Positions 13,368 through 28,217 of a stretch of DNA of 64,000 bases are shown one piece after another. The notes under the pieces are model-generated. The model did no database searches, was not told the origin of the DNA, and was given only the letters and a program-made list of their open reading frames with translations. The DNA comes from Methylobacterium sp. PvR107 (GTDB taxonomy: Bacteria > Pseudomonadota > Alphaproteobacteria > Rhizobiales > Beijerinckiaceae). The stretch covers positions 1,488,001-1,552,000 of the forward strand of contig NZ_JAFIBW010000001.1 in NCBI RefSeq assembly GCF_017833295.1. The letters are read 5' to 3'. Made by a program: the position numbers and the translations under genes. Every line of letters begins with the position of its first letter. The stretch's first letter is position 1.

Positions 13368-13377
13368 GCCGGTCTTC

Positions 13378-13403
13378 GGCCGGCGCCCGTCGGGACGCCG
13401 GCC
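13378..13403. terminator. Hairpin between convergent genes
   Basis: GGCCGGCG (13378-13385) pairs perfectly with CGCCGGCC (13396-13403) around a ten-base loop. It lies 11 bases past the glucose-phosphotransferase stop and 12 bases before the end of the opposing gene. There is no T-run, so termination is inferred from position and stem strength. Confidence 0.5.
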
Positions 13404-13415
13404 GCCGCGCACCGC

Positions 13416-13769
13416 CTACGGCAGGGCGCCGGCCTTCTCCTTGGCCTTCATGATCGTATCGCGGCAGCCCTGGGCGTCGCCGCCCTTGTCCTGCTCCCGG
13501 GCCTGGGCGACGAGCTTCTTGGCCTCCTCCACGCCCGCGGCGGTGGGCTTCACGTCAGCGTCCGACTTGGTGAGGGCCGGCGGCTTGTCGAGCGCCTTCG
13601 GAGAATTCGACGAGGTCGGGCCGCCCGGCGGCGTCGTGCCCGTCACGGAGGCGGCACCGGCACTGTCGAGACGCCGCTGCAGGGTGTCGACCTCGTCGGC
13701 GCATGGGGTCGCCAGGGCCGGCGTGGCTGCGGCGAGGGCCAGGGCTGCGAGGGCGAATCTGATCATCAT
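13416..13769 (-). CDS. Small secreted protein with a cysteine pair, lut-associated
   Basis: 117 aa with a clear signal peptide (MMIRFALAALALAAATPALA). The mature protein has Cys near its start (TPCADEV) and a second Cys in a C-terminal helix (GCRDTIMKAKEKAG). Between them is a low-complexity Gly/Pro/Thr/Ser linker. The last 33 residues align without gaps to the end of LutD at the same cysteine, with 9 identities, including KK, G, C, D and the final AxxxxG pattern. It lies downstream of lutH on the same strand, where lanmodulin is remembered to lie in M. extorquens AM1, but it has no EF-hand. Function unknown; an envelope role linked to the lut system is inferred. Confidence 0.7.
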   Translation of the reverse strand: MMIRFALAALALAAATPALATPCADEVDTLQRRLDSAGAASVTGTTPPGGPTSSNSPKALDKPPALTKSDADVKPTAAGVEEAKKLVAQAREQDKGGDAQGCRDTIMKAKEKAGALP

Positions 13770-13933
13770 TGAGGCGTTTCTCCACTGCACCTGAGCGCGA
13801 TCGGCTCCGGCTGCCCGCGATGCGGCGGGCCGCCACGTCCGGATGCGACTACCGTGGAGACGCCGGGCGCATCGGGCCGTTCCCGAGACAGGAGGCCGCA
13901 CCGCGCACTGGGAAACGGAAGCGGGCGCCCCCG

Positions 13934-13951
13934 GGCGGCCTGGAAGCCGCC
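13934..13951 (-). terminator. Hairpin downstream of lutH
   Basis: GGCGGC (13934-13939) and GCCGCC (13946-13951) form a six-bp stem with a six-base loop, about 30 bases past the lutH stop codon. No T-run follows, so it is only a candidate. Confidence 0.35.
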
Positions 13952-13981
13952 GAGAGCGCCCACAGCGGGTCGTGTCGTCCG

Positions 13982-16552
13982 TCAGTACTTGCGGATGATC
14001 GGCTCCGGCGACATCGGCACCGGGTCGGCGCCGAAGGCGTAGCGGATGCCGGCGTAGACCGAGAACGGCTGCGCCAGGGTCGTGGTCCGCGAATCGCTGA
14101 TCCGCAGGTTGCCGGCCACCGGGCCTGGCTCCGCGAAGGTGCCGAAGGTCGCGTAGCGGTTGTTGGTCAGGTTGGTAATCAGCCCGAAGACCTCGAGGTT
14201 TTTCGTCACCTGATATTTGGTCTGCAGGTTCATCGTGTAATAGGCCGGGAGCTTGCGGTTCAGGTTCGACTCGTCGCCGCGGAAGTAGGACGAGGAGAAG
14301 GCCTGGAGGTAGAGCCCAAGCTGCCAGTCTGGTGTGATGAAGTAGTCGAAGCCGGCCTTGATCTGGTGCGCCGGCACCAGCGGCACGATGTTGCCCTTGC
14401 GGACCTGGATCGCCCCATCATCGGCGAGCGGATTGTTGGGCGACGACAGGGTGCCGTTGAACTGGAAGGTCGCGTCGACCAGCGCGTAATTGGCGTAGAC
14501 CCGCAGGTAATCGGCCGTGTACTCGCTGCCGACCTCGATCCCCTGCCGCTGCGTCGAGGGCACGTTCACGAAATAGGCGCGCGCCGTGTTGCCGGGCGTC
14601 GCGAGCGACAGGATGTCGTTGCTGAGATCCGTGCGGAACGCACCGATCTTGTAGGTGATGACGCCGCCGTCATAGGTGTTCGGCAGCTGGCCCCGGAAGC
14701 CGACCTCGTAGGTCCGCGCCGTCACCTGCTTCAGCGGCGGATCGGCGACCAGCGAGTTCGGCAGGAGGCACGGCCGGTCCGGGTTGGCGCAAGCCAGTTC
14801 CAGCGGGGTCGGGGCGCGGTTCGACTCCGAGTAGCTGCCGTAGAGGTTCAGCGCGTCGAAGAAGCGGTAGGTCAGGCCGGCGACCGGGTTGATCTTGTTG
14901 TAGTAATGCGTGCCCGTCACGTCCGGAGAGAAGCCGGTGAGATCCTCGCTCTGGATGCGCGCGAAGTTGAGGCGTGCGCCGGCCGTCAGCGACAGCCGGT
15001 CGGTCACGTCGAGCGTATCGAGGGTGTAGAGGCCCATGTAGACATTCGAGCCGTTGACCGAGCTCGGCGCGATGCCGAGAGCGCCGGCTGTCCGCAATTG
15101 CGGCGTGCCGAGGCCCGGGATGTTGCCGTAATAGGGGTTGCTCGGGTTGGTGGTGATCGACAGGTCGGGGTTGATGACTCCGAGGGTGCTGGACGACTTG
15201 AACGAGTAGTTCGCCGTGTCGATGCTGCCGCCGACCACGAAGGTGTTGGGCAGGCCGAACACCCGGTCGCGGTTCGAGGCCTGGAGCGAGCCGCCGAAGC
15301 CCGTGGCCTCGGTCCGGGTCGTGTCCAGGGTGCCGTAGGGGATGTTGGCCCGGAACGGGATGCGCTGGTTCTGCTGGCCCAGGATCAGGAACTGATTGCG
15401 GAACGCGAGCTGCGACTGGCCGGCGGACGGGCTGAACCCGTCATCCTGGTAGCAGAGATTGCCGCGGAAGCTGGAGCGCGTGCTGCAATTCTCGAAGTTG
15501 CCGTCGTTGCCATCCACGTAGGTCTGGCTGAAGCGGCGGAAATAGGCGTTGCCGGCCAGATCCCAGGTCGGCGAGATGTCGACGCGGCCGGTGAGCTGAA
15601 GCGAGCCGACCTCGGTGGTGGTGGTCTGCGGGAAGGTGAAGATCGCCCGCGGGTCGCGATGGGTGAAGTCGACCGGCGTCGCGGCGGCGGCACCGTAGAA
15701 GCTGCGGGCCGCGAGACCGATCAGGTGGAACTCGGAATCCTGCGAGCGGTAGCCGAGATCGGCGTAGAGCCGGCCGATCGTGCTCGGGCTCTCGTAGCGC
15801 CAGCCGCGGTCATTCAGCCCGTCGCCGGTGAAGTACACGCTCCAATTGTCGACGACCTTGCCATATTGCAGGTAGCCGGCGGTGCGGGCATCGGAGCCGC
15901 CCCAGGCGGCGATCTCGGTGCCCTGCCAGGTGAAGCCGTTCTTCATCTGGATGTTGACTGCGCCGCCCAGCGCGTTGAGGCCGAAGACCGGGTTGCCGGT
16001 GACCACGTCGATCCGCTGGATCGCCTGCTGCGGGATCAGGTCGAAATTGACGACGTCGCCGAAGGCCTCGTTGATGCGCACGCCGTTCTGGTAGACGGCG
16101 AGCCCCTGCGGCACGCCCTGAACCGGCGAGGCCGTGAAGCCGCGATAGGTCACGTCCACGCGGTTGTTGTTGCCCTGCGAGTCGGAGATGTTGAAGCCGG
16201 GCGTGCGCCTTGCCAGCGTCGTGACCAGATTGCCGCTGGCCTGATCGATGGCGAGGTCGCTCGCGGTGACCGACTCGACCGTGCTCGGGATCTTATCGAG
16301 GGGCTGCTCGCTGCCGCGCAGGCGGGTCAGGCCGGTCGGCGGCACGGACCCGTTCGGCGGCACCGGGCCGGGACCGTTGAAGGTCTGCGCCTGGCTCGAA
16401 CTTCCGCCCCCTGAGCCAACCGGCGTCGTGGACACCACGCTGATCTCGCCCAGCGTCACCGATTGCTGAGCCTGAACGCTCCCCGACAGGACCGTTCCGG
16501 CGAGCACCGATGCAGACGCGACCAAGCTGCTCCGCAACGCGCGAAGTGACAT
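13982..16552 (-). CDS. lutH: TonB-dependent receptor, LutH-like (lanthanide chelate uptake)
   Basis: 856 aa from the ATG at 16552, which starts a signal peptide (MSLRALRSSLVASASVLAGT) ending at QAQQ. Next come a possible TonB box (GEISVVS) and a linker rich in Gly, Ser and Pro. The plug domain shows DVTYRGFTASPVQG, INEAFGDVVNFDLIP and NALGGAVNIQMKNG. A long beta-barrel has repeated aromatic strands and the family end ANYALVDATFQF...YAGIRYAF, plus a 16-residue tail. In AM1 the homolog at the end of the lut operon is needed for lanthanide uptake; the ligand here is inferred from synteny. A 257-bp gap with a hairpin separates it from lutG. Confidence 0.88.
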   Translation of the reverse strand: MSLRALRSSLVASASVLAGTVLSGSVQAQQSVTLGEISVVSTTPVGSGGGSSSQAQTFNGPGPVPPNGSVPPTGLTRLRGSEQPLDKIPSTVESVTASDLAIDQASGNLVTTLARRTPGFNISDSQGNNNRVDVTYRGFTASPVQGVPQGLAVYQNGVRINEAFGDVVNFDLIPQQAIQRIDVVTGNPVFGLNALGGAVNIQMKNGFTWQGTEIAAWGGSDARTAGYLQYGKVVDNWSVYFTGDGLNDRGWRYESPSTIGRLYADLGYRSQDSEFHLIGLAARSFYGAAAATPVDFTHRDPRAIFTFPQTTTTEVGSLQLTGRVDISPTWDLAGNAYFRRFSQTYVDGNDGNFENCSTRSSFRGNLCYQDDGFSPSAGQSQLAFRNQFLILGQQNQRIPFRANIPYGTLDTTRTEATGFGGSLQASNRDRVFGLPNTFVVGGSIDTANYSFKSSSTLGVINPDLSITTNPSNPYYGNIPGLGTPQLRTAGALGIAPSSVNGSNVYMGLYTLDTLDVTDRLSLTAGARLNFARIQSEDLTGFSPDVTGTHYYNKINPVAGLTYRFFDALNLYGSYSESNRAPTPLELACANPDRPCLLPNSLVADPPLKQVTARTYEVGFRGQLPNTYDGGVITYKIGAFRTDLSNDILSLATPGNTARAYFVNVPSTQRQGIEVGSEYTADYLRVYANYALVDATFQFNGTLSSPNNPLADDGAIQVRKGNIVPLVPAHQIKAGFDYFITPDWQLGLYLQAFSSSYFRGDESNLNRKLPAYYTMNLQTKYQVTKNLEVFGLITNLTNNRYATFGTFAEPGPVAGNLRISDSRTTTLAQPFSVYAGIRYAFGADPVPMSPEPIIRKY

Positions 16553-16746
16553 TCCCAACCCCCGTGGCCCGAGACCCATGCTCGTTGTCGACGAGCTTGT
16601 GATCACTCATGCCGAGTGGCGGGGATGCGCACAATTGTCCGTGAACCGCGATCGCGCTGTTTTGGCGGTCTTTCCCCCGCCGCGCCGCGGATGCCGGCTC
16701 GACGTGATGAAACCGCAACAGTTTCTTGAGCGCGATCAAGCACTTA

Positions 16747-16767
16747 GGGAGCATTCGGCAAGCTCCC
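16747..16767 (-). terminator. Hairpin between lutG and lutH
   Basis: GGGAGC (16747-16752) and GCTCCC (16762-16767) form a six-bp stem with a nine-base loop, 43 bases beyond the lutG stop codon on the transcribed strand. It could attenuate read-through so that the receptor gene is expressed differently from the ABC genes. There is no T-run, so this is weak evidence. Confidence 0.35.
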
Positions 16768-16809
16768 CGGGATGATGTGGCAAAAGGCGTCTGTATCCGC
16801 AGAACGGCT

Positions 16810-17463
16810 TCAGAGCCGTGCCTGGATCATCCGCGCGATCTCACCCAGACGTTGCTCGAGGAGCTGGGGAACCTCGCAGACATAGGTGAGGGACTGGCTG
16901 CGCTCCTGGAAGATGCGGCGGTCCCAGGCGAACTTCGTCTCCAGCTCCGACTGATCCTTGGGGAGCTCCGTCGCATCGGAGGCGCTCGGCGCATCCTTGA
17001 CCTGGCTGATCTTGTCGGCCTCGTCGCGGATCCGCTCCGCCATCCGGCGCTGGCCCTGGGCGTAGCGGGCGATGCCGCCGACCACCTTGTCGCGCTCGCC
17101 GTTGATCACCTCGAACACGCCGGCGTAGACCCGGGTCAGGGCCTTGTCCTTGGCGTCCTTGTCGGTGCCGGCCTTTCCGGTGAACTCGTCGAGGAGCGGT
17201 CCGACCTGCGAAAGCTCGGTGCGCCGAGAGGCGATCTTCTGGGCGAGCACCGCGGCATCGTTGTCGCTGCCCCAATCGCCGGCCGCGGCGATGTCCGGGC
17301 CCGTCCAGAACTGGCCGGGGCTCAGGGTTGCGACCTTACGCTGGACACAGGGCCAGTCCGGATCTTGGCGCGGCTGCGCCAGCGCCGGTCCCGCGAGGAG
17401 GCTCAGCCCGAGCGCGGTGCCGAGGATGCGGAAGTCAAGAGGGTTCATCGGAACGGGCTCCAT
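16810..17463 (-). CDS. lutG: LutG-like exported protein
   Basis: 217 aa. The start ATG at 17463 shares one base with the lutF stop codon. An internal ATG at 17448 (MNPLDFRIL) also begins the signal peptide, which ends at ALAQ. The mature protein is mostly helical and charged, with predicted coiled-coil character over about 70-190. It has two cysteines, C39 near the mature start (DWPCVQRKV) and C196 near the end (TYVCEVP), which could close a helical bundle. No known domain is recognised. Periplasmic location and a part in lanthanide handling are inferred from its place in the operon. An Asp-rich stretch near residue 98 is not a proper EF-hand loop. Confidence 0.8.
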   Translation of the reverse strand: MEPVPMNPLDFRILGTALGLSLLAGPALAQPRQDPDWPCVQRKVATLSPGQFWTGPDIAAAGDWGSDNDAAVLAQKIASRRTELSQVGPLLDEFTGKAGTDKDAKDKALTRVYAGVFEVINGERDKVVGGIARYAQGQRRMAERIRDEADKISQVKDAPSASDATELPKDQSELETKFAWDRRIFQERSQSLTYVCEVPQLLEQRLGEIARMIQARL

Positions 17464-18356
17464 CAGGGGGTCTCGCCAGCCGGGCCACCGCGCCGGGCCA
17501 TGATGCCGCGGCCGGGATCGTAGGCCACGACGGCGGCGCCGAAGAAGGCGAGCGTCACGCCCACCACGACCGCGCAGGCGACCGGCTCGAACTGGATGTA
17601 GAGGGCGTAGCGGACGAGCTGCACAGCGTGGCTGAACGGATTGAGCTCGCAGATCCAGTACAGCGTCTCCGAGGATTCCCGGATCCGCCATAGCGGGTAG
17701 AGGGCCGAGGAGGCGAAGAACATCGGGAAGATCACGAAGTTCATCACGCTGGCGAAGTTCTCGAGCTGGCGCACCAGCGAGGACAGGAACAGCCCAATCG
17801 CCCCGAGCATCAGGCCCGAGGCCAGGAAGGCCGGGAGCGCGGTCAGGTAGCCGAGCGGCGGGATGTCCGTCTCCCAGAAATAGGCCACCGCCAGGAAGGC
17901 ATAGGCCTGCACGATCGACACGGCGACGCCCGCGATCAGCTTGGCGAGCAGCAGCAGCCAGCGCGGGTAGGGCGAGGTCAGCAGCACCTTCATCGACCCC
18001 ACCTCGCGGTCGTAGACCATCGAGAGCGACGACTGCATGCCGTTGAACAGCTGGATCATCACCGCCAGCCCCGGCACCACGTAGACTTCGTAGAGCACGT
18101 AGGTCTGGTAGGGCGGCTCGATGGAGACGCCCAGCGTGTTGCGGAAGCCCGCCGCGAAGATGAATAGCCAGACGAGCGGACGGACCAGGGCCGAGAAGAA
18201 CCGCTCCTTCTGATTGAAGAAGCGCAGCAATTCCCGGCGGACGATGCCGCCGAGGCAGATCAGGTAGCCGACCGCGTCGAGGCGACCGATCCGGGGCTGT
18301 GCGACGCGCGCCGGCACAGCGCCAGGAGGCGAAGAAACCTGTATCGGCGCGCTCAT
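17463..18356 (-). CDS. lutF: ABC transporter permease, LutF-like
   Basis: 297 aa, ABC-2 type permease with six hydrophobic segments. The N-terminus (GYLICLGGIVRRELLRFFNQ) has the amphipathic entry helix of the family, and the middle holds SLSMVYDREVGSMKVLLTSP, a typical ABC-2 contact loop. It forms the inner-membrane part of the transporter with LutE and the substrate-binding protein LutA. Related permeases occur in PQQ-dependent alcohol dehydrogenase gene clusters, including the Pseudomonas ped system. Its ATG overlaps the lutE stop (ATGA), which implies coupled translation and fixed stoichiometry. Confidence 0.9.
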   Translation of the reverse strand: MSAPIQVSSPPGAVPARVAQPRIGRLDAVGYLICLGGIVRRELLRFFNQKERFFSALVRPLVWLFIFAAGFRNTLGVSIEPPYQTYVLYEVYVVPGLAVMIQLFNGMQSSLSMVYDREVGSMKVLLTSPYPRWLLLLAKLIAGVAVSIVQAYAFLAVAYFWETDIPPLGYLTALPAFLASGLMLGAIGLFLSSLVRQLENFASVMNFVIFPMFFASSALYPLWRIRESSETLYWICELNPFSHAVQLVRYALYIQFEPVACAVVVGVTLAFFGAAVVAYDPGRGIMARRGGPAGETP

Positions 18357-19102
18357 GCCGCGGCCCTCCCCGGCTCGGCCACGAGGCGGCGGAAGGCATC
18401 GGCCAGGGACTCGCCGGGGCCGCCGATATCCCCGGCCCGGCCGCGGGCGATGATCCGGCCCCGGTGCAGAACGACAGCGTCGTCCTCGGGCGCAATCTCC
18501 TCGAAGATGTGGGTCGCCCAGAGAACCGAGAGTCCCTCCTCCCGTACCAGGGCGCGTACGATCGCCACGATGTCGGCGCGGGATTCGAGGTCCAGCCCGA
18601 CGGTCGGCTCATCGAGGAGCAGCAGGTCCGGGCGATGGATCAGCGAGCGGGCGATCTCGATGCGCCGCGACTGGCCGCCCGATAGGGTGCGGACCTTGTC
18701 GTGCCGCCGGTCGGCAAGGCCGACCCGGTCGAGCAGTGTCCCGACGCGGGCCTTCCCGGCACCGCGGGCGATACCGTGAAGGCTCGCGTGATACAGGAGG
18801 TTCTGCTCGACGGTGAGGTCGGTATCGAGGGTCCGCGCCTGGAACACGACACCGAGCCGCGCGAGCGCCCGCGAGGGCTCCCGGTCGAGCCCGTGGCCGA
18901 AGATCGCGACCCGGCCGGTCTGGTTGTTGTAGAGCCGGGTGATCACCGAGAACAACGTCGTCTTGCCGGCGCCGTTCGGCCCGAGCAGGGCGGCGAAGCG
19001 CCCGCGCGCCACCGTGATCGAGACGTCGTCGAGCGCCGTCCGTGCCCCGAACCGATGCCCGACCTGCTCGACCTGCAGGGCAGCAGCCTCCACCGCGCTC
19101 AT
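18353..19102 (-). CDS. lutE: ABC transporter ATP-binding protein, LutE-like
   Basis: 249 aa from the ATG at 19102, which overlaps the lutD stop as ATGA. It is a complete nucleotide-binding domain: Walker A GPNGAGKTT (41-49), Q-loop VVFQARTLD (about 85-93), signature LSGGQSRRIEIARSL (140-154), Walker B LLLLDEP (160-166) and H-loop ATH. It powers the LutF permease on the cytoplasmic side. The ABC-2 partner is of a type more often linked to export, so the direction of transport should not be assumed from sequence alone, although the AM1 system is described as import. Confidence 0.93.
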   Translation of the reverse strand: MSAVEAAALQVEQVGHRFGARTALDDVSITVARGRFAALLGPNGAGKTTLFSVITRLYNNQTGRVAIFGHGLDREPSRALARLGVVFQARTLDTDLTVEQNLLYHASLHGIARGAGKARVGTLLDRVGLADRRHDKVRTLSGGQSRRIEIARSLIHRPDLLLLDEPTVGLDLESRADIVAIVRALVREEGLSVLWATHIFEEIAPEDDAVVLHRGRIIARGRAGDIGGPGESLADAFRRLVAEPGRAAA

Positions 19103-19344
19103 CGCCCGAGCACCTTTCGGGCATCGGCGACGGCGTCGAGGCACTCGTCGAACTCGCCCTCCTTCTGCTCTCGCTCGGCGACCCGCAGGGCCTTCTTGAG
19201 CTTCGGCAATGCGGGTTCGGGCGGGTTCAGCGCGAGCGCGTCACGAATCATCGTGATGCCCTCCGCGCAGGCGGAGGCATCATCGGCGGCGAGCGCCGGT
19301 CCGGCGAGGAGAAGGCCTGAGACGAGGAACAGGACGCGCATCAT
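19099..19344 (-). CDS. lutD: LutD-like small periplasmic protein, 81 aa
   Basis: The ATG at 19344 overlaps the lutC stop codon (ATGA). A second ATG follows at once, so the two starts differ by one residue. A signal peptide (MRVLFLVSGLLLAGPALA) leaves a mature chain of about 60 residues. This has two cysteines (ASACAEG and FDECLDAVADARK) on what look like two antiparallel helices, probably disulfide-linked. The C-terminal 33 residues align with the secreted protein at 13416-13769. The role is unknown; it may be a metal- or ligand-relay protein for the LutEF transporter (inference from the operon). Confidence 0.8.
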   Translation of the reverse strand: MMRVLFLVSGLLLAGPALAADDASACAEGITMIRDALALNPPEPALPKLKKALRVAEREQKEGEFDECLDAVADARKVLGR

Positions 19345-19775
19345 TTCACCGTCAGCGTGCCGGTCATGCCTTTCGCTTCCAGGCCGCGCGCTTCCCACTT
19401 GTAGGTGCCGGGCTTGATGGCGACGAACTCGATGGCGATCTCGCCGGGATCGTCGAATTCCAGGTGGTCGGGTGGGCCGCCGCCGTGGATCTCCTTGTGC
19501 TCGATCACGATCTGATTGAACCAGATGTATCGGAAGAAGTCCGGCGCGTAGAATTTGTATTCCTGGCGGCCCTTGGCGACGATGCGCAGCCTGTAGGCCT
19601 TGCCGGATTCGAGCGTGATGTCCTTGTTCTCGACGGCGAAGTCGTTGCCCTGGTCGTCACCCAGGACGAGGTCGGGCAGGTTCTCCCGCTTCTTGGTGAG
19701 GTCCAGGGCCAGCACTGGACCGGCCGCGAGCAGCCCCACCAGGGCGAGGGCTGCCGTTCGAAACTTGAGCGTCAT
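19341..19775 (-). CDS. lutC: LutC-like cupredoxin-fold periplasmic protein lacking copper ligands
   Basis: 144 aa with a signal peptide (MTLKFRTAALALVGLLAAG, cleaved near ALA). The mature part reads like a single cupredoxin domain: VENKDITLESGKAYRLRIV early, and the last strands PGTYKWEARG and KGMTGTLTV. In blue copper proteins the same last segment carries Cys and His before the Met (PGxYxFxC...H...M). Here Cys and His are absent and only Met remains, and the early His position (QEYKFYA) holds no His. It is therefore unlikely to hold type 1 copper. AGGAAG precedes the ATG. Acidic patches (HLEFDDPGE) could bind a hard cation, but this is only a suggestion. Confidence 0.82.
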   Translation of the reverse strand: MTLKFRTAALALVGLLAAGPVLALDLTKKRENLPDLVLGDDQGNDFAVENKDITLESGKAYRLRIVAKGRQEYKFYAPDFFRYIWFNQIVIEHKEIHGGGPPDHLEFDDPGEIAIEFVAIKPGTYKWEARGLEAKGMTGTLTVK

Positions 19776-19831
19776 GTCGCTTCCTACCCTTGGGCGCAAC
19801 GCCCGGTGCCCGATTCGACTCGGATCTTGGA

Positions 19832-20815
19832 TCAGTTCGGCGAGATCGCCACGCCCCAGGGCAGCAGTCCGACCGGGATGCTCTTGACCACCTTCTCGGC
19901 GGCGACGTCGATCACCGAGACGTCGTTCGACGTGCCGTTCGTTGTGAAGAGCTGCTTCTGGTCCGGCGTGAAGGCGAGCTGCCAGACGCGCTGGCCGACC
20001 GGCAGGTACTTCTCGACCTCGTAGGTCTTCGCGTCGATGACCGCGACCCGGTTGGCCGGGCCCAGCGCCACGAAGGCTTTGGTTCCGTCCTTGGTGATCC
20101 GGATGCCGACGGGCTGGATCGCCTCGTCGTTCACGCTCGGAATCTTGAAGCTGATCTTCTTGATCAACCGGCGCTGCGCCACGTCGATCACGCTCACCGT
20201 GCCGCCGACCTCCGCGGAGACCCACAGGAACTTTCCGTCCGCGGTGAACTCGGCGAAGCGCGGGCGTGCATCGACCAGCACGTTGTCGATGACCTGGAAA
20301 GTCTTCGTGTCGATGAAATGGGCCATGTTGGTCGTTTCAGAGGTATTGACCAGGATCTTCCCGTCAGGCGACAGGCCCATCCCCTCCGGCTCGACCCCGA
20401 CCGGCACCTCGGCCAGAACCTTGTTCTTCTCGATATCGATGATGGTGACCTGGCTGTCATCCTCGTTGGCGACGTAGAGCGGGTTACCCGAGGAATCGAG
20501 AATGAACTGCTCCGGATCCGGGCCCGAGCGCAGGGAGCGCACCACCTTGCCGGAGCTCGTATCGAGCACGTCGATCCGGTCGTCGTCGCTCGCGCAGACG
20601 AACAGCTCCTTGCCGTCCTTCGACACGGTCACGCCCCGCGGGCGCCGGCCGACCTTCCAGGTCGCCGTCACCGCCATCGTGGTCGAGTCGATGACGCTGA
20701 CCGAATTGCCCTTCTCGTTGGTGACGTAGGCGGTGAAGGCGGCGGCTGGCCCGCATAGGGCGAACCACGCTCCGAGGGCGAACACACTCAGACCTGCCTC
20801 GACGCGGCGGTTCAT
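19832..20815 (-). CDS. lutB: LutB-like beta-propeller (PQQ-dependent catabolism-associated YVTN family)
   Basis: 327 aa from the ATG at 20815, preceded by a strong GGGAAGGGAA. A signal peptide ends near AAAF, and mature repeats begin at once with AYVTNEKGNSVSVID. About seven YVTN-type blades recur (LFVCASDDDRIDVLD, LYVANEDDSQVTIID, LWVSAEVGGTVSVID, LFTTNGTSNDVSVID). Proteins of this exact type accompany PQQ-dependent alcohol dehydrogenase gene sets. It should be a periplasmic scaffold or binding protein. A second, separate propeller of the same superfamily is encoded at 26882-27838 in the opposing operon. Confidence 0.88.
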   Translation of the reverse strand: MNRRVEAGLSVFALGAWFALCGPAAAFTAYVTNEKGNSVSVIDSTTMAVTATWKVGRRPRGVTVSKDGKELFVCASDDDRIDVLDTSSGKVVRSLRSGPDPEQFILDSSGNPLYVANEDDSQVTIIDIEKNKVLAEVPVGVEPEGMGLSPDGKILVNTSETTNMAHFIDTKTFQVIDNVLVDARPRFAEFTADGKFLWVSAEVGGTVSVIDVAQRRLIKKISFKIPSVNDEAIQPVGIRITKDGTKAFVALGPANRVAVIDAKTYEVEKYLPVGQRVWQLAFTPDQKQLFTTNGTSNDVSVIDVAAEKVVKSIPVGLLPWGVAISPN

Positions 20816-20936
20816 GCCATTCCCTTCCCTTGCGGCTTCCCGGCGTCCTCGAAGGACGTTCTCGGACGACAATTGTAGTGCGATGTCCGCGCGTTGCGAG
20901 AGCGTCGGCCGCTCACCAACGCCGCAGGCGGAGGCC

Positions 20937-22163
20937 TCACTTGAACTTGCAGGTGGTCTCCGGAAGATCCACGCCCAGCGTGTCGAGCGGGGTGCGCTGA
21001 TGCAGGAAGCCCTGCTCGGGGGCCACAGAGACCAGCGCCTTCGGCTGCACGACGATGATCGCCTGCCGGAGCTGGTGGTCCCAAGGCCGGAAGCTCAGCG
21101 GCACGCCCTTGTAGGCCGGCAGCGTGAAGTCCGGCTGAGCGAGATAGGGCCCGATCACGGCCGGATCGTTGGTCTTCTTGCCCGTCACCGCTTCCCCGAC
21201 GGTCCGCACCGCGGCCCAGACCTGATAGTCCAGTGGGCGCATCAGGCGTCCGGCGAGCCGCCGGAACCGGTTCTGCGCCTGGGCCGCCCCCCAGGTCTCC
21301 AGGACGGGCGACCACGTCGTGGGCGTCAGCGCCTGCGTGCCGCCGACCGGGCGCGGGTCGACGGTGCGGTAGGGAACGTAATCCCCCCAATCGCCCTCCT
21401 CGTCGGCCACGATCGCCATATCGTAGTCGAGCCCCCGGGTGAAGACCATCGCCTCGGCCCGGGTCGGGGTGTCGCCCCGCGCCTTCGCGAGCGGTCCGAA
21501 GGTCCAGGGCTTCTCGGCCGTGATCTTGAGCGCGAATTTCCGGGCCGAGTTGCGAACCGCGTCGGCATAAGCCTTGTCGGCGTCGGTGGGGCCGACGATC
21601 AGGAAGAGCTTCCGCCAGCGCATCACCGTCAGGTACTGCGCCAGTGCGTCGGCGAGCATGGCCCGCGACGGCAGGATGTGGAACACGTTGGCCCGGCAAT
21701 CGGCCCCGCGCAGGCGGTCGTCGGGCGCTCCGGCATTGAGAATGACGGCACCGGACTCCTTCACGGCATCCGCGACCGCCAGCACCGCGTCTGCCGGCAG
21801 TGCCAGGACGAGAAAGCGCACGCCCTTCGCGACCAGATCCTTGGCGGCCGCGACCGGGTCCGGCTTGTCGTCGGTCAGCGCGATCTCGTCGAGCGCGTAG
21901 GTCTGTTTGGTGAACCGGCCGGTCGTGTTGCTGTCGGCGATGCCCATTTTGGCGCCCGCCAGGCCCTCGTCCTCCGGCGCCGCCTCGGCATCGTAGGAGG
22001 ATGGGGCGGGCTGCGGCCGATAGATCAGGCCGATCTGCGTCTCGATCGGCTGCGCGGCGGCCTGCTGGGCCTGCGCGGAGAGCGGAAGCAGCACGAGCGC
22101 GGCCAGCGCGACGCGCAGCCATACCAGGCGCAGGACGACCGTGTCGGGTGCAGGATCTTGCAT
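20937..22163 (-). CDS. lutA: ABC transporter substrate-binding protein, LutA-like
   Basis: 408 aa, first gene of the lut operon. After the signal peptide (LRVALAALVLLPLSAQAQ) comes a type I periplasmic-binding fold of the branched-chain amino acid receptor class: ETQIGLIYRP, KGVRFLVLALPADAVLAVAD, and a C-terminal lobe with RPLDYQVWAAVRTVGEAV. This is the subgroup named for PQQ-dependent alcohol dehydrogenase systems. Two cysteines (GADCRAN and the C-terminal TTCKFK) could form a disulfide. It should deliver the lanthanide-containing ligand to LutEF in the periplasm. Its start is 183 bp from that of the divergent operon. Confidence 0.88.
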   Translation of the reverse strand: MQDPAPDTVVLRLVWLRVALAALVLLPLSAQAQQAAAQPIETQIGLIYRPQPAPSSYDAEAAPEDEGLAGAKMGIADSNTTGRFTKQTYALDEIALTDDKPDPVAAAKDLVAKGVRFLVLALPADAVLAVADAVKESGAVILNAGAPDDRLRGADCRANVFHILPSRAMLADALAQYLTVMRWRKLFLIVGPTDADKAYADAVRNSARKFALKITAEKPWTFGPLAKARGDTPTRAEAMVFTRGLDYDMAIVADEEGDWGDYVPYRTVDPRPVGGTQALTPTTWSPVLETWGAAQAQNRFRRLAGRLMRPLDYQVWAAVRTVGEAVTGKKTNDPAVIGPYLAQPDFTLPAYKGVPLSFRPWDHQLRQAIIVVQPKALVSVAPEQGFLHQRTPLDTLGVDLPETTCKFK

Positions 22164-22346
22164 GTGCGCGGCCTCTAACAGCTTCCGCTCCGACCGCTCA
22201 ACCGCGGCCTGTTGTCCCGACGTTCACGTTCCCGTCGTGGAATACGCAGGCCGCGAAGTACATTGCCAAATTGTCCCTTCGCCCGACCTATGCCGGCAGC
22301 GATGTCGCCGCACGCGGCGATCGGACCGTCGAGAGGAAGCCTGACG
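22164..22346. promoter_or_regulatory. Divergent control region between the lut operon and the cofactor operon
   Basis: 183 bp serve both operons. On the minus strand, TTGAGC (22201-22196) and TTAGAG (22178-22173) are 17 bases apart, a sigma-70-like pair lying very close to the lutA ATG. On the plus strand, TTGCCA (22263-22268) and CCTATG (22287-22292) are 18 apart. An imperfect inverted repeat, TTCACG...CGTGGAA, occupies 22223-22242 and could be an operator. These are visual matches only. Confidence 0.4.
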
Positions 22347-22874
22347 ATGCGCCCCCCGTCTCTCCGCGCCGCCACCGCGTGCGCGCTCGCCATTCTGGGG
22401 ACCACCCTGCCCGGCGCGGCTCGGGCGGCCGAGAAGGCCGCGGTGTTTCCCGTGGAGCTATTCGATCCCGGTGCCTCCTACGGCGCTCGTGCGCGGCCGG
22501 CCGACACCAAGAAGCTCACCCTGGTCACGGACGAGTTGCGCAAGGCACTCCACGATCAGGCCGGGCTGGAGATCGTCGATACGGCGCCGAAGGCCGACAC
22601 CGTGGCCAAGGACGGCCCACTCTACAAGTGCAACGGTTGCGCGGCGGACATCGGCAAGAGCCTGGGTGCGGACCTCGTCGTGACGGGTTATGTGGAGAAG
22701 GGGTCCGGTCAGATCTTCAACCTGAGCGTCGCCATCGCCGAGGCAGAGACCGGCAAGGTGGTGCGCGGCGGGCAGGTGACGATCCGGGCCGACACCGACG
22801 ATACCTGGGCCCACGCCATGCGTTGGGTGGTGAAGAACCGCCTGCTCGCCGAGCCGCTGCCCGGGAAGTCATAA
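22347..22874 (+). CDS. DUF3280 (DUF2380-like) exported protein
   Basis: 175 aa from the ATG at 22347; GAGAGGAAG lies 8 bases upstream, and a signal peptide starts there (MRPPSLRAATACALAILGT). The mature protein has an alpha/beta segment (KAAVFPVELFDPGASYG, ELRKALHDQAGLEIVD), a CxxC motif (YKCNGCAADIG) and SLGADLVVTGYVEKGSG, the pattern of DUF3280/DUF2380. This family is commonly found with PQQ-dependent dehydrogenase gene sets. It is first in the plus-strand operon, 28 bases before the mfnB-like gene. Its function is not established; the CxxC may bind metal or be redox-active. Confidence 0.78.
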   Translation: MRPPSLRAATACALAILGTTLPGAARAAEKAAVFPVELFDPGASYGARARPADTKKLTLVTDELRKALHDQAGLEIVDTAPKADTVAKDGPLYKCNGCAADIGKSLGADLVVTGYVEKGSGQIFNLSVAIAEAETGKVVRGGQVTIRADTDDTWAHAMRWVVKNRLLAEPLPGKS

Positions 22875-22902
22875 GGCCTGCCGTCGAAATCCCGAGTCAT
22901 CC

Positions 22903-23604
22903 GTGTCCGCGTCCTCTGCCCGAGCCACTCCCCTGCCCCGCCTGCTCGTCAGCGTCCGTGATCCGGCCGAGGCCGAGGCTGCGCAGCTGGCCGGAGCCGA
23001 CCTGATCGACGCCAAGGATCCCGAGCGCGGGGCGCTCGGCGCGCTCGACACCCGGACAGTGCGGGAGATCGTCGCCCGGGTGTCCGGCGGTGCTGTGACC
23101 AGCGCGGTCGCCGAGCCGACGCCGCGCGACGTGGCCGCGATGGCGGCGGCGGGTGTGGATTGGGTCAAGACCGGCATCGGCGCGGCACGACGCGCGGATC
23201 GCGCGGCACTGGCGGCTCTCGCCGCCGCTTCGCCCGGACGCCTGATCGCCGTGCTGTTCGCCGAGGACGGCCCGGCCGCCGCCCTCGTTCCGCACCTCGC
23301 CGAAGCCGGCTTCGCGGGCGCGATGATCGATACGGCCGGCAAGCGGGGCGCGCGTCTGCCCGATCTCGCGGCGCCGCAGGATCTGGCGGCCTTCACCGCG
23401 GGCTGCCGCGCTCATGGGCTGATGAGCGGTCTTGCGGGCTCGCTGCGGGTCATCGATATCCCAAGCCTCAGCGCGCACGCGCCGGATTATCTGGGCTTCC
23501 GTGGCGGCCTATGCCGCGACTTTGATCGCCACAACGGCATCGATCCCCTGCGGGTCGCCGAGGCGCTGCGCGCCCTGCGGCCGAACCGGCGGGACGCCGC
23601 GTGA
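22903..23604 (+). CDS. mfnB: (5-formylfuran-3-yl)methyl phosphate synthase, MfnB-like
   Basis: 233 aa from a GTG start. In archaea MfnB condenses two glyceraldehyde-3-phosphate molecules to the furan core of methanofuran. Methylotrophs use a related cofactor in the formyltransferase/hydrolase complex. Catalytic lysines sit where expected: K38 in DAKDPERGALGA and K89 in DWVKTGIG. The C-terminal half keeps the TIM-barrel phosphate loop (SGLAGSLRVIDIP) and YLGFRGGLCRDFDRHNGID. The stop overlaps the next start as GTGA. The activity in this organism is inferred from archaeal homology. Confidence 0.88.
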   Translation: MSASSARATPLPRLLVSVRDPAEAEAAQLAGADLIDAKDPERGALGALDTRTVREIVARVSGGAVTSAVAEPTPRDVAAMAAAGVDWVKTGIGAARRADRAALAALAAASPGRLIAVLFAEDGPAAALVPHLAEAGFAGAMIDTAGKRGARLPDLAAPQDLAAFTAGCRAHGLMSGLAGSLRVIDIPSLSAHAPDYLGFRGGLCRDFDRHNGIDPLRVAEALRALRPNRRDAA

Positions 23605-24176
23605 CCGCCGTAGTCAAGGTCGGTGGCAGCCTCGAGGCGGATCCGCACCGTCGCCGCGCCCTGTTGATAGCGCTCGCCGACGGCGTGCTCGGGCGCTGCA
23701 TCGTCGTGCCGGGCGGCGGCACCTTCGCGAGCGCCGTGCGGGCCGCGCAGGTGCGCGAGGGTTTCAGCGACGCGGAAGCCCACCGCCGCGCGCTCGACGC
23801 GATGAGCGATGCGGCCGGCATCTTCCGCGGGATCGAGCCGCGCCTGGTGCAGAGCCTGGAGCCCTGGACGGAGGCTGCGCCGGCCCGGGCGCGGGTGTGG
23901 AACCCGCGCCGGCTGCGCGCGGGCCATCCGGACATCCCCGAGACCTGGGACGTCACCTCCGACAGCTTGGCGCTCTGGCTTGCCGCGCAGGTCGAGGCCG
24001 AACGCTGCGTGCTGATAAAGTCCGTCGATGCGCCCGGTCATCACGATGCCGCCGCCTTGGCGCGCGTCGGTCTGGTGGACGCTGCCTTCCCGGACTTCGC
24101 CGCGCGGTACGGCGGCCCGATCGAGATCTGGGGTCCGACCGACAAGGTGACGGTCGCCCTGAGGAACGCCGCGTGA
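23601..24176 (+). CDS. Amino acid kinase family enzyme (MfnE-like)
   Basis: 191 aa, GTG start overlapping the mfnB stop. It shows the amino acid kinase core: VVKVGGSLEADP at the N-terminus (phosphate-binding Lys and Gly-Gly), CIVVPGGGTFASAV, and the C-terminal nucleotide loop IEIWGPTDKVTV. The chain is short for aspartokinases but typical of the small group encoded with methanofuran or tetrahydromethanopterin genes. In archaea, MfnE phosphorylates aminomethylfuran-methyl phosphate. The same step here is likely, as the gene is coupled to mfnB, but it is not proven by sequence. Confidence 0.78.
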   Translation: MTAVVKVGGSLEADPHRRRALLIALADGVLGRCIVVPGGGTFASAVRAAQVREGFSDAEAHRRALDAMSDAAGIFRGIEPRLVQSLEPWTEAAPARARVWNPRRLRAGHPDIPETWDVTSDSLALWLAAQVEAERCVLIKSVDAPGHHDAAALARVGLVDAAFPDFAARYGGPIEIWGPTDKVTVALRNAA

Positions 24177-25735
24177 GCGCGCCCGAGCATATCGTGTTTG
24201 TTACCGGCCGCCTCGCGCGAGCGCGGCTGGAGAAGGTTGCGGCCGGCCTTCCCGATCGGTTCCGGTGGAGCATCGCCGATGCCGGCGTGAAGGTCGCCGC
24301 GCTGATGACCGAGGAGATCATCCGCCGCCGAGTCGTGCTGCCCGAGGGCGCGACCCGGGTGATCCTGCCGGGCCGGTGCCGGGCCAATCCCGAGCACCTG
24401 GCCGCGCATTTCGGCGTGCCGGTCGAGCGCGGCCCCGACGAGGTCGTGGATCTGCCCGCGTGGCTCGGCCTGACGGCCCGGAAGGTGGACCTCTCCCGGC
24501 ACGATCTGCGGATCTTCTCGGAGATCGTCGACGCCTCGAAGATGCGTGTCGACCAGATCCTGGCCAAGGGCCTCGACCTCGCCCGGCGCGGCGCCGATGT
24601 CATCGATCTGGGCGGACTGCCCGACACGCCGTTTCCCCACCTCGAGGATTCCGTTCAGGCGCTGAAGGGCGCCGGCCTCACGGTCAGCGTCGATTCCTTT
24701 TCCGGCGAGGAGTTGGCCCGGGGCGCGGGCGCCGGGGCCGACTACCTGCTGAGCCTCAACGAGGAGACACTTGATCTCGCCTTCGAGACCGACGCCGTGC
24801 CAATCCTCGTGCCTCTGCGGCCCGACGACCTGCCGTCCCTCGACCGGGCGATCGAGCGGATGCTGAAGGCCGGGCGGCCGTTCCTGGCGGATCCGATCCT
24901 GGAGCCGATCCATCACGGCTTCGTTGATTCGATCGCCCGCTATCGCGAGACTCGTGCCCGCTGGCCAGAGATCGAGATGATGATGGGCACCGGCAATCTC
25001 ACCGAGCTGACCGAGGCCGACTCCTTGGGCGTGACAGCCCTCCTCGTCGGCATGTGCTCAGAGCTTTCGATCCGCAACGTGCTGATCGTGCAGGTTTCGA
25101 ACCACACCCGCCGCACCGTCGAGGAACACGATGCGGCCCGCCGGGTGATGTACGCCGCCAAGGCCGATTCCGCGCTGCCCAAGGGGTATGGTCGCGCGCT
25201 GCTCGCCCTTCACGACAAGCGCCCCTACGTGCAGACCGCCGAGGAAGTGGCTCAGGGCGCTGCCGAGGTGCGCGATCCCAATTACCGGATCGCGGTCGCG
25301 GAGGACGGGATCCACGTCTACAACCGCGACATTCACAGGGTCGGCACCGACGCGATGGCCTTCTTCCCCGACCTCGATGTCGCCAGCGACGGCGCGCATG
25401 CCTTCTATCTCGGCGCGGAGCTCGCCAAAGCCGAGACCGCGTGGCGGCTCGGAAAGCGCTACGTGCAGGACGAGCCCCTCGATTGGGGGAGCGCGGCCGA
25501 CGCCGATGTCGAGGATGCCACCGCCTTCAAGAAGGCCGGTCACACGCGCCATTCCGGACCGGACGCGCCGCCGCCCGGAACGCGGGACGCCCGCCTCGTG
25601 AGGCCCGAGGCCGACGCTGGCGCGCCGGAGATCATTTCCGAAGAGGCCGCGCGCGCGGAGGCGGCGCCCGGTCCACCGCAGGATCCGAAGGCCAAGCTGG
25701 TCTGCGGGCGGCTCGTGCCGGCCGACAGGGCGTGA
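24173..25735 (+). CDS. DUF6513 dihydropteroate synthase-like protein
   Basis: 520 aa; the GTG at 24173 overlaps the preceding stop (GTGA). The frame is open much further upstream, but that part runs antisense-like through two genes. The N-terminal domain (about 1-110) begins IVFVTGRLARARLEKV. A TIM barrel follows with GADVIDLGGLPDTPFP and VSVDSFSGEE, which recall dihydropteroate synthase motifs. EIMMGTGNLTELTEAD-type residues come later, around 285. The last 90 residues are Asp/Glu/Pro/Ala-rich and end KLVCGRLVPADRA. Homologs occur in methanogens and in methylotrophs that make tetrahydromethanopterin, which suggests a pterin or methanofuran step, still undefined. Confidence 0.82.
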   Translation: MSAPEHIVFVTGRLARARLEKVAAGLPDRFRWSIADAGVKVAALMTEEIIRRRVVLPEGATRVILPGRCRANPEHLAAHFGVPVERGPDEVVDLPAWLGLTARKVDLSRHDLRIFSEIVDASKMRVDQILAKGLDLARRGADVIDLGGLPDTPFPHLEDSVQALKGAGLTVSVDSFSGEELARGAGAGADYLLSLNEETLDLAFETDAVPILVPLRPDDLPSLDRAIERMLKAGRPFLADPILEPIHHGFVDSIARYRETRARWPEIEMMMGTGNLTELTEADSLGVTALLVGMCSELSIRNVLIVQVSNHTRRTVEEHDAARRVMYAAKADSALPKGYGRALLALHDKRPYVQTAEEVAQGAAEVRDPNYRIAVAEDGIHVYNRDIHRVGTDAMAFFPDLDVASDGAHAFYLGAELAKAETAWRLGKRYVQDEPLDWGSAADADVEDATAFKKAGHTRHSGPDAPPPGTRDARLVRPEADAGAPEIISEEAARAEAAPGPPQDPKAKLVCGRLVPADRA

Positions 25736-25739
25736 GCCG

Positions 25740-26330
25740 ATGCCGCTGATCCTCGAGACGATCGTCACGACTCTGTCGCCCGCGGGTGAGCTGCACCTCG
25801 TGCCGTTCGGCCTGATCGGCGAGGATGAGGGCTACGTGCTGGCGCCGTTCCGGCCGTCGCCGACCATCGTCAATCTGGAGGCCAATCCGTTCTTCGCGGC
25901 GTCGAGCCCCCGCGATATCCGGGTCATCGCCGGTGCGGTGACGGGCCGGCGCGAATGGCCGACGGAGGCGTGCACGGCGATTCCGGGGCGCCGACTCGCC
26001 GACAGTTTCGGACATGCCGAGTTCGCGGTCGCGGCGGTGGAGCCGCACGCGACGCGCCCGCGCTTTCGCGGGCGCCTGGTTCACAGTGCCGCGCACGCGC
26101 CGTTCATCGGCTACAACCGCGCGCAGGCCGCCATCCTGGAGGCCGCCATTCTTTCGACCCGGCTGCACATGCTCGAGCCGGACAAGGTGTTGACGGAGAT
26201 GGCCTACCTCGCCATCGCCATCGGCAAGACCGCGGGACCCCGCGAGCGCGAGGCCTGGGGCTGGATCGAGGACAAGGTCGCGGCGGCGCTCGGCCCCGAG
26301 GCGCGCGTTCTCGATCGTGATGACCGCTGA
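25740..26330 (+). CDS. DUF447 family protein (flavin reductase-like split barrel)
   Basis: 196 aa, 4 bases after the DUF6513 gene. DUF447 signatures: N-terminal LILETIVTTLSPAGELHLVPFG, then SPTIVNLEANPFF, and a C-terminal helical part with HAPFIGYNRAQAAILEAAILSTRL. The fold is an FMN-binding split barrel. In genomes the family tracks with tetrahydromethanopterin-dependent C1 metabolism in archaea and methylotrophs. Its operon with mfnB, a kinase and DUF6513 places it in C1 cofactor biosynthesis. The reaction is not known to me. Confidence 0.82.
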   Translation: MPLILETIVTTLSPAGELHLVPFGLIGEDEGYVLAPFRPSPTIVNLEANPFFAASSPRDIRVIAGAVTGRREWPTEACTAIPGRRLADSFGHAEFAVAAVEPHATRPRFRGRLVHSAAHAPFIGYNRAQAAILEAAILSTRLHMLEPDKVLTEMAYLAIAIGKTAGPREREAWGWIEDKVAAALGPEARVLDRDDR

Positions 26331-26351
26331 CGGCGGGAGGAGAAGGACAAG

Positions 26352-26885
26352 ATGAAGAAAATTACCCTGGCCTTGGCGGCCACCGCGGCACTCGTGGCCG
26401 CGACGGCACAGGCTCACGGCCCGACTCGGCGGAAGATCACCGAATCGATCGAGATCAACGCGCCGGCCGACAAGGTCTGGGCCGTGGTCGGCGACGTGAA
26501 GAACGCCGACTGGGTTCAGAACGTTACCAAGACCGACTTCACCGGCGATCCGGCGGGCAAGTTCAAGCGTGTGCTGACGCTCAAGAACGGCGATCAGATC
26601 TCGGAGACCAGCAACAAGCTGAAGCCCGACGACAAGCTGTTCTCGTATTACATCGACAAAGTCGACGTGAAGGACCTGCCGGCCAACGACTACTCTGCGA
26701 CGATCACGGTCGAGCCCGCGGGCGACGCCAAGTCGAAGGTCGAGTGGAAGGCGGCCTTCTACCGGGGCTACATGAACAATGACCCGCCGCCCGAGCTGAA
26801 CGACGAGGCGTCCGAGAAGGGCGTCGGCAACTGGATCAAGGCCAGCCTCGCGAACCTGAAGGCCAAGGTCGAGAAGGGCTCGTGA
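26352..26885 (+). CDS. MxaD-like periplasmic SRPBCC protein
   Basis: 177 aa; GGGAGGAGAAGGA upstream makes a strong ribosome site. A signal peptide (MKKITLALAATAALVAATAQA) precedes an SRPBCC/polyketide-cyclase domain: ITESIEINAPADKVWAVVGD at its start, then KRVLTLKNGDQISE, and a long final helix (EKGVGNWIKASLANLKAKVE). The AHGPT mature N-terminus and export signal recall MxaD, a periplasmic protein reported to help methanol dehydrogenase meet its cytochrome. A true mxa cluster is not in this window, so a partner such as XoxF is possible. Its stop overlaps the next gene's GTG. Confidence 0.75.
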   Translation: MKKITLALAATAALVAATAQAHGPTRRKITESIEINAPADKVWAVVGDVKNADWVQNVTKTDFTGDPAGKFKRVLTLKNGDQISETSNKLKPDDKLFSYYIDKVDVKDLPANDYSATITVEPAGDAKSKVEWKAAFYRGYMNNDPPPELNDEASEKGVGNWIKASLANLKAKVEKGS

Positions 26886-27838
26886 CGTCGCATCGGGGTC
26901 GCGCGGCGCTCGCCGCCGGCCTCACCCTCCTCGCGTCGGCTGCCTCGGCCGAGCCGGCGCGGGAGGCGATCGTCACGGCTCAGCTGGGCGGCGCGGTCGA
27001 GATCATCGACCTCGCCGCCGGCACGGTCCTGCGGCGCGTACCGGTGGACGGGGCGCCGGCCGGGATCGCGTTGTCGACCGACCGCAAGCGCGCCTACGTG
27101 ACGCGTCCCGAGGGGCATGGGATCGCGATCATCGACCTCGATTCGGGGCAAATCCTGTCGGAGGTCGCGCTGCCCGGTGGTCCGCTCGGCATCGCGGCGG
27201 ACCCGCGCGGCGGCACGGTCTACGTGGCCGACTGGTACGGCCACCGCCTGTTCGTGCTCACCGAGCACAACGGAACGCTGAGCCCGGACGGCGAGATCGG
27301 CGTCGGAGCCTCGCCCTCCGGCTTTGCCGTGAGTCCCGACGGGGCGACACTCTATGTGGCGAACCGCGAAGCCGACACGATTTCGGTGGTGGACGCCAAA
27401 AATCGCCGCGAGACGAAGGTCATTCCGGTGGGGCAACACCCGTTCGGCCTCACCCTGGATGCCGCCGCGGGCCGGGCCTATACGGCCAACGTGACCGGGG
27501 ACGACGTCTCCGTCATCGATCTCAGCGCGGGGCGCGAGATCGGCCGGGTCCCGACGGGTCGAAGGCCCTACGTGATCGCACTGACGCAGGGACGCGGCTT
27601 CGTCACCGATCAATATGCCGGCAGCGTTACCGCCTTCGACCTCGCGACGCTGAAGCCGATCGCCGACATCGACGTCGGTGACCACCCGGAGGGCATCGCC
27701 GCCGATGAGGATGGGCGCCTCTACGTGGCGAATTGGGGCGACAACACGCTGAGCGTCCTCGACGCGCGGACGCTGACGGTGATCAAGACGATCCCCACCG
27801 GGAACGGCCCGCGCTCCTTCGGTGCCTTTCTGCGCTGA
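26882..27838 (+). CDS. YncE-type beta-propeller protein, exported
   Basis: 318 aa, GTG start within a GTGA overlap. The signal peptide (LAAGLTLLASAASA) is followed by about seven YVTN-like blades: EAIVTAQLGGAVEIID, AYVTRPEGHGIAIID, VYVADWYGHRLFVL, LYVANREADTISVVD, AYTANVTGDDVSVID, FVTDQYAGSVTAFD and LYVANWGDNTLSVLD. It is last in the seven-gene operon. It resembles LutB in architecture but not closely in residues. A periplasmic role beside the MxaD-like protein is inferred. Confidence 0.85.
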   Translation: MTSHRGRAALAAGLTLLASAASAEPAREAIVTAQLGGAVEIIDLAAGTVLRRVPVDGAPAGIALSTDRKRAYVTRPEGHGIAIIDLDSGQILSEVALPGGPLGIAADPRGGTVYVADWYGHRLFVLTEHNGTLSPDGEIGVGASPSGFAVSPDGATLYVANREADTISVVDAKNRRETKVIPVGQHPFGLTLDAAAGRAYTANVTGDDVSVIDLSAGREIGRVPTGRRPYVIALTQGRGFVTDQYAGSVTAFDLATLKPIADIDVGDHPEGIAADEDGRLYVANWGDNTLSVLDARTLTVIKTIPTGNGPRSFGAFLR

Positions 27839-27912
27839 CACGGGTTCAGCTGGGGGATGCCTCCCGCGAGACACGTCCCGATCGGGCTGGAGCCGGCGCG
27901 GCCCGAAAGCCG

Positions 27913-28113: not shown

Positions 28114-28217
28114 GGCTTGGCTTCCCGTGTCGAACGGGACCAGATTAGCAAGCCTTGAGCCAGGGCCAAGCTGCCCGGACGGCCAAGTCAGTAATCGGCA
28201 GCTCAGCGCCCGCCAGA

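Follow-up and report, generated by a model that had tools for sequence, protein, structure and literature searches.

The stretch of DNA analysed here ("the window", 64,000 nucleotides) covers positions 1,488,001-1,552,000 of the 6.36-Mb genome of Methylobacterium sp. PvR107. It contains two divergent gene rows. The leftward row is a lanthanide-uptake (lut) cluster, with predicted transport activity, and it faces a row of seven genes that we read as a composite operon of three modules. The first module, DUF3280, would be a periplasmic part of a lanthanide/pyrroloquinoline quinone (PQQ)-dehydrogenase system. The second, mfnB-mfnE-DUF6513-DUF447, would make one-carbon (C1) carrier cofactors for cytoplasmic formaldehyde oxidation, MfnB and MfnE serving methylofuran and DUF6513 probably a pterin condensation in the synthesis of tetrahydromethanopterin (H4MPT), while the DUF447 step is unassigned. 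The third, an MxaD-like protein and a beta-propeller, would be an exported pair of proteins that assists a lanthanide PQQ-methanol dehydrogenase; the analogy with MxaD suggests that it does so in enzyme maturation or at the step between dehydrogenase and cytochrome. The three modules would be joined in one probable transcription unit in the genus. Taken as a whole, roles included, this reading is likely. The features are, from left to right (ABC, ATP-binding cassette; ORF, open reading frame):

13416-13769, minus strand: small secreted protein at the lutI position (ORF, no Pfam match, named from position only)
13982-16606, minus strand: TonB-dependent receptor at the lutH position (PF00593/PF07715)
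16810-17448, minus strand: lutG, exported protein (ORF and family profile)
17463-18356, minus strand: lutF, ABC permease (TIGR03861, 382 bits, cut-off 241)
18353-19102, minus strand: lutE, ABC ATPase (TIGR03864, 342 bits, cut-off 302)
19099-19344, minus strand: lutD, small exported protein (ORF and family profile)
19341-19775, minus strand: lutC, exported protein (ORF and family profile)
19832-20815, minus strand: lutB, beta-propeller (TIGR03866, 529 bits, over cut-off)
20937-22163, minus strand: lutA, ABC substrate-binding protein (TIGR03863, 473 bits, over cut-off)
22164-22346, no strand: divergent control region, 183 bp, with a conserved element at 22262-22276
22347-22874, plus strand: DUF3280, exported, CxxC, TolB N-domain-like fold (PF11684, 128 bits; linkage; model and fold comparison)
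22903-23604, plus strand: MfnB (orf22), furan-phosphate synthase of methylofuran synthesis (PF04476, 172 bits; naming after PMC8141765)
23601-24176, plus strand: MfnE-type kinase (orf21), amino-acid-kinase family (PF00696, 39 bits; NF040622, 48 bits, below cut-off)
24173-25735, plus strand: DUF6513 protein at the orf20 place (PF20123, 83 bits; TIGR00284, 187 bits, below cut-off 257; model and fold)
25740-26330, plus strand: DUF447 protein at the orf19 place (PF04289, 53 bits; PF20766, 64 bits; relative of solved 3b5m)
26352-26885, plus strand: exported MxaD-like SRPBCC protein (PF10604, 97 bits; family of the META1p1771 position by synteny)
26882-27838, plus strand: exported YVTN/YncE-type beta-propeller (PF21783, 47 bits; PF01436), partner of the MxaD-like gene

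Strands and identities of all named genes were confirmed by gene calling, Pfam and NCBIfam, and the gene list, strands, gaps and 183-bp region given in an earlier note on this DNA (hereafter the original prediction) proved correct to the base. The rightward gaps are 28, -4, -4, 4, 21 and -4 bases. Export of the DUF3280, MxaD-like and propeller proteins was called by eye from signal peptides. LutA, LutB, LutE and LutF all matched families of a PQQ-dependent alcohol dehydrogenase ABC system over the NCBIfam cut-offs. Seventeen of 18 loci, from Methylobacterium/Methylorubrum (16) and two close metagenome-assembled genomes (MAGs), contained all seven rightward genes; the 18th (L042) stops at a contig edge. 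All 18 had lutA to lutG beside the rightward row. In the whole-genome sample, the seven genes were present in 6/6 other Methylobacterium genomes, with lut adjoining in five. This genus-wide retention of the layout argues that the co-location is not due to chance, and the fixed linkage for which the original prediction had proposed a synteny survey holds within the genus.

To follow each module beyond the genus, 297 genomes of the order were surveyed. DUF3280 (PF11684) was found in 72 of them, 68 of which also carry a lutA match that passes the family cut-off. The two genes lie within 3 kb of each other in 45 genomes from 14 families, and are divergent in all 45. Such close pairs occur both with mfnB (32/49 genomes) and without it (13/19). 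In five genomes (G117, G221, G054, G086, G125), DUF3280 is on the same strand as lutE and lutF. The lut and mfn genes are at least 15 kb apart in 28 genomes, in five of which DUF3280 stays within 3 kb of either, beside lutA in four and beside mfnB in one (G197). The only DUF3280 genomes without lutA, four members of family f28, have the gene beside pqqE and pqqCD. On a tree of DUF3280 proteins, the lut label required 8 changes, versus a mean of 23.9 for shuffled labels; every row from a survey region received the label "lut", even those of L050 and L056, which are 9 and 7 kb from their nearest lut gene, and the G197 row was entered as "solo". DUF3280 follows lut rather than the cofactor genes, and is the usual divergent partner of lutA.

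Neighbours of non-lut DUF3280 genes were judged by eye. In family f28 (L162, L230, L231, L232) the gene is convergent to pqqE-pqqCD; its other neighbour in L162 is a class III alcohol dehydrogenase-like frame. By the same inspection, about 3 kb of other genes, including an ABC ATPase-like one, separate DUF3280 from mfnB in family f2 (L066-L083 and others), and in L064 permease-like and substrate-binding-like genes also lie between them.

The literature search found DUF3280 in one paper. Among Pfam families associated with the Calvin cycle, it has been ranked 13th, as a family of possible special interest with no known function (PMC7895386; this and the other papers are cited from parts of their text). 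In our sample, where presence and absence were tested without correction for phylogeny, DUF3280 and RuBisCO (matches above 400 bits, 79 genomes) were associated, with an odds ratio of 2.8, but inside lutA-bearing genomes the ratio was 0.88 (p 0.70). Between DUF3280 and lutA it was 14.9 with RuBisCO present, and where RuBisCO was absent 41/41 DUF3280 genomes had lutA. The published Calvin-cycle association vanishes in this sample once lutA is accounted for. Methanol growth by XoxF and the Calvin cycle, reported in Bradyrhizobium and Sinorhizobium (PMC12628762), would explain both links of DUF3280, to lutA and to RuBisCO.

The DUF3280 protein has 175 residues. Its predicted structure, by fold comparison, has a TolB N-domain-like fold with a CxxC pair, and since there is no C-terminal propeller, it is not a TolB. 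With the group formed by the TolB N-terminal domain, LpoB, PelC and CsgG, the model shares the fold at an identity of about 15%, but differs by the CxxC pair and the lack of a fused propeller. A literature search found no paper joining TolB with lanthanides and methylotrophs. One speculative idea, which we hold improbable, is that DUF3280, with a redox or metal-binding CxxC, and the LutB propeller make up a split TolB-like periplasmic machine, linking the TonB lanthanide receptor to the LutA-ABC importer or passing lanthanide/PQQ to the dehydrogenase. If this were so, lanthanide trafficking would have a core component that has been overlooked, DUF3280, and this would be the reason for its Calvin-cycle flag.

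For the cofactor cassette, PF04476 (MfnB) was detected in 74/297 genomes, and 70 neighbourhoods of 16-20 kb were read, with profile matches counted only above set score limits; G000 (the window itself), G039, G268 and G289 are outside these 70. At least two of mfnE, DUF6513 and DUF447 were near mfnB in 60 neighbourhoods, at least two lut genes in 32 (families f1, f2, f5, f22, f25, f32, f42 and f46), and DUF3280 in 27. Within the same 70, no lut genes were near mfnB in families f10, f26, f29 and f33. Among the 63 genomes that have lutA as well as mfnB, the window's own included, 35 have the two at most 15 kb apart. In the window, the four genes are adjacent, in one direction, and all over the Pfam cut-off, as expected of an orf19-22 cluster; the assignment draws on Pfam, synteny and published naming. 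Orf22 is MfnB and Orf21 is MfnE (PMC8141765), and the published order is orf19-orf20-afpA-orf21-orf22 (PMC3615186), so that DUF6513 and DUF447 occupy the orf20 and orf19 places. The DUF6513 model contains a dihydropteroate-synthase-like TIM barrel at residues ~110-333 (predicted structure and fold comparison). The protein had no solved relative by sequence at E 0.001, and the literature search found nothing that joins dihydropteroate synthase, MJ0107 and methanopterin. DUF6513 would probably perform a pterin condensation of H4MPT synthesis. The original prediction had looked to DUF6513 and DUF447, among others, for missing parts of lanthanide-dependent methanol oxidation. They are probably not such parts, because they travel with MfnB and MfnE also where no lut gene is close, and DUF6513 has a dihydropteroate-synthase-like domain.

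The MxaD-like protein was searched in 33 chosen genomes, and 25 of them had matches at E values up to 1e-5, 19 of these below 1e-20. From 46 matches, 14 were read in new regions outside the mfn row, weak ones being left out, and in 14/14 of these other sites the propeller gene is directly behind the MxaD-like gene. Two of the sites are in genomes without mfnB (G032, G229), and six have a PQQ dehydrogenase in the region. Near mfnB, the pair was seen in 11/70 neighbourhoods (six in f1, four in f25, one in f46). Compared with solved structures, the MxaD-like protein had weak matches only (best 3cnw, E 0.0008). No mxa genes are beside it, and no MxaF-type enzyme of its own genome scored over the TIGR03075 cut-off; it is therefore named MxaD-like and not MxaD. 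Three enzymes of this genome are over that cut-off for PQQ alcohol dehydrogenases (1,176,444; 5,056,885; 563,044), and all three carry the D-Y-D motif that marks the lanthanide type. At 0.855 and 6.20 Mb lie weaker, untyped PQQ-domain matches. Clade A species have been reported that lack mxaF and depend on lanthanum (La) for growth on methanol (PMC8561711). Since only lanthanide-type dehydrogenases were recognised here and such clade A species depend on La, it is improbable that the MxaD-like protein serves MxaFI, and the strain possibly needs lanthanides for methanol.

In M. extorquens AM1, an MxaD homolog, META1p1771, was found in an XoxF1 screen; its deletion reduced growth on methanol with La to 0.11 per h, versus 0.16 for the wild type, and according to the discussion of that study it is required only when La is provided (PMC7391723). 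The La-only defect of this homolog, together with the lanthanide-type dehydrogenases of PvR107, favours the proposal that the exported genes serve lanthanide methanol oxidation in one of its parts, that concerning the MxaD-like protein. As a separate observation, three f46 genomes (G110, G136, G180) have a weak MxaD-like match inside the lut cluster itself.

Inspection of the control region revealed a conserved element, ATTGCCAA...GTCC (22262-22276), upstream of DUF3280 and in the same place in 16/16 loci (the window and L032-L046). Its distance to the start of the aligned part of mature DUF3280 is 140-253 bases, most loci have a CTAT box after it, and it may be the promoter of the rightward row. 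No sigma-70-type promoter was detected in 13300-28300, where 1.0 was expected by shuffling, and no terminator-like site was detected on the plus strand inside the rightward row. The operon structure, as first predicted, is supported, and the rightward row is probably one transcription unit in this genus.

The core of the element, ATTGCC-N5-GTCC, has 14 exact matches genome-wide, versus 3 for the reversed control. As a candidate for a shared regulatory motif it was rejected, for at these counts it does not mark a regulon. Two 15-base ATTGCC...GTCC copies lie head to head as an inverted repeat at 19137-19168 of L165 (near 1,179,150). The repeat closely follows the end of another gene and is roughly 1 kb upstream of xoxF, a place that makes it more likely a hairpin than a promoter.

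A number of observations weigh against the composite operon with the roles proposed. The evidence for single transcription consists of the spacing and the absence of terminator-like sites on the plus strand inside the row. RNA-seq of AM1 with La reported induction of the xox genes and no differential expression of the H4MPT-pathway genes, and the main-text table of that paper has no META1p177x/178x gene (PMC6414531); in a second study, several lut genes changed in an evolved strain, and the main text has no META1_17xx tag (PMC8969499). At least for AM1, these data argue against a joint response triggered by La, and a common La response of the row is not borne out. They would suit a neighbourhood without shared regulation, in which islands were gathered by transfer and linkage selection and each module has its own promoter. 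The composition of the row also differs between families, and the sole conserved promoter-like element marks no regulon. However, gaps of -4 to 28 bp and a plus strand free of terminator-like sites leave little room for internal promoters, and we regard this explanation as rather unlikely.

Further points of this kind concern the family assignments. In the cassette, the NCBIfam cut-offs were missed by MfnB (192/297 bits), MfnE (48/300) and TIGR00284 (187/257). In 23 of the 68 genomes that contain both, every DUF3280 gene is outside the 3-kb range of lutA; for G125 the distance is 3.0 kb, still inside the lut cluster, in G194 the gene is 7.6 kb away, and in G197 it is beside mfnB. The other distant genes had no recurring partner except among close relatives, in the 20 of the 23 genomes that were read (all but G175, G195 and G244). 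Extra DUF3280 copies occur in many genomes, and PvR107 itself has two, at 3,465,186 (L144) and 1,209,383 (L145), with no lut gene near either. The distant and extra copies show that the family is not exclusive to lut. Moreover, inside lutA-bearing genomes DUF3280 is associated with mfnB (odds ratio 3.9, p 0.002), the bootstrap of the DUF3280 tree is unsettled, the presence tests ignore phylogeny, and the literature search yielded neither expression nor mutant data on DUF3280, on the propeller or on strain PvR107.

Part of this would be expected if DUF3280 were a general envelope protein of the LpoB/PelC kind, unrelated to lanthanides and only incidentally linked to lutA: its fold class has many unrelated roles, and the 23 distant cases fit. 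Against this stand the divergent orientation of 45/45 neighbouring pairs across 14 families and the place of DUF3280 beside PQQ genes in the four lutA-less genomes, so that such a role is unlikely. It is very unlikely that all seven rightward genes form one lanthanide-responsive functional unit whose cytoplasmic and periplasmic products lead from methanol to formate. In favour of such a unit, the seven recur together in 17/18 loci of Methylobacterium, Methylorubrum and the two close MAGs, the row again includes the MxaD-like and propeller genes in 4/4 f25 genomes and 1/4 of f46, outside the genus, and start and stop codons overlap within it. Against it, the modules are found apart: the cassette has no nearby lut in f10 and f29, 13 genomes that lack mfnB have DUF3280 with lutA, and the MxaD-like/propeller pair occurs at a distance from the other two modules. 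In addition, the H4MPT-pathway genes of AM1 were reported as not La-responsive (PMC6414531). The row that had been proposed as one functional unit is better described by the composite operon, as three modules that also occur separately.

The arrangement is known in kind, as there are precedents both for lut with META1p1771 and for orf19-22. In AM1, lutA-lutH are META1p1778-1785, and the META1p1771-1785 region has the same uptake genes, with the MxaD homolog seven locus tags from lutA (PMC7391723). The region of PvR107 differs in that no lanmodulin gene was recognised in the cluster and in that the block lies ~330 kb from xoxFGJ and fae, a distance at which a chromosomal tie to these genes was rejected for this genome. 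In Methylorubrum aminovorans (L047), the genes outward from lutA are DUF3280, mfnB, mfnE, DUF6513, DUF447, two MxaD-like genes and the propeller, a set that would fit the seven-tag interval META1p1778-1771 of AM1. The "archaeal-like" orf19-22 cluster, where MfnB and MfnE were named and whose orf20 and orf19 places are held here by DUF6513 and DUF447, is bounded in the window by exported genes, whereas that of M. trichosporium contains afpA (PMC8141765, PMC3615186). The TIGR03861-TIGR03866 system and PedA1A2BC of Pseudomonas putida share the substrate-binding protein, propeller, ATPase and permease; DUF3280 is absent from the descriptions seen of these systems (PMC6839425).

The region is thus not a new place to look, since lutA-H, META1p1771 and the homologs of orf19-22 in the AM1 region were already named or tested. 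What is new is the division into three modules, the link made between DUF3280 and lut/PQQ systems, the pairing of the MxaD-like and propeller genes, and the divergent receptor at the lutH place. DUF3280, a family without function, gains a testable role in a rare-earth system. Both this candidate periplasmic component of lanthanide trafficking and the fixed helper pair proposed for lanthanide methanol dehydrogenase can now be targeted directly by knockouts.

The receptor at the lutH position was only 38% identical by BLAST to the receptor in the same place in M. aminovorans (clade B), which was compared in place of the AM1 sequence, and is below the 50% identity to the clade B (AM1-type) receptor that would be expected of a LutH ortholog. 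By comparison, lutA, B, C, E, F and G are 65-85% identical to their M. aminovorans counterparts; lutD gave no BLAST match to that species. Most clade A strains are reported to lack a LutH above 50% identity, and a different receptor may take its place (PMC8561711), for which the protein at 13982-16606 is an obvious candidate. The receptor of G106, of the same genus, is also just 38% like that of the window, which indicates at least two receptor types in the genus. As to lanmodulin, no EF-hand match was found among the operon proteins scanned by Pfam, and the single match to PF13202, the sole EF-hand model used, in the whole genome is in a 2102-aa frame. Two candidate duplications were rejected: LutB and the rightward propeller are not recent duplicates (31% identity over 208 residues), and LutD and LutI gave no BLAST match to each other as paralogs.

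Two minor observations concern DUF3280 in the genus. By eye, one of the extra genes of PvR107 is beside transposase-like genes and the other beside an HlyD-like gene. In G197 (L122, L146), lutA is on another contig, and the rightward row has been retained in full, with DUF3280.

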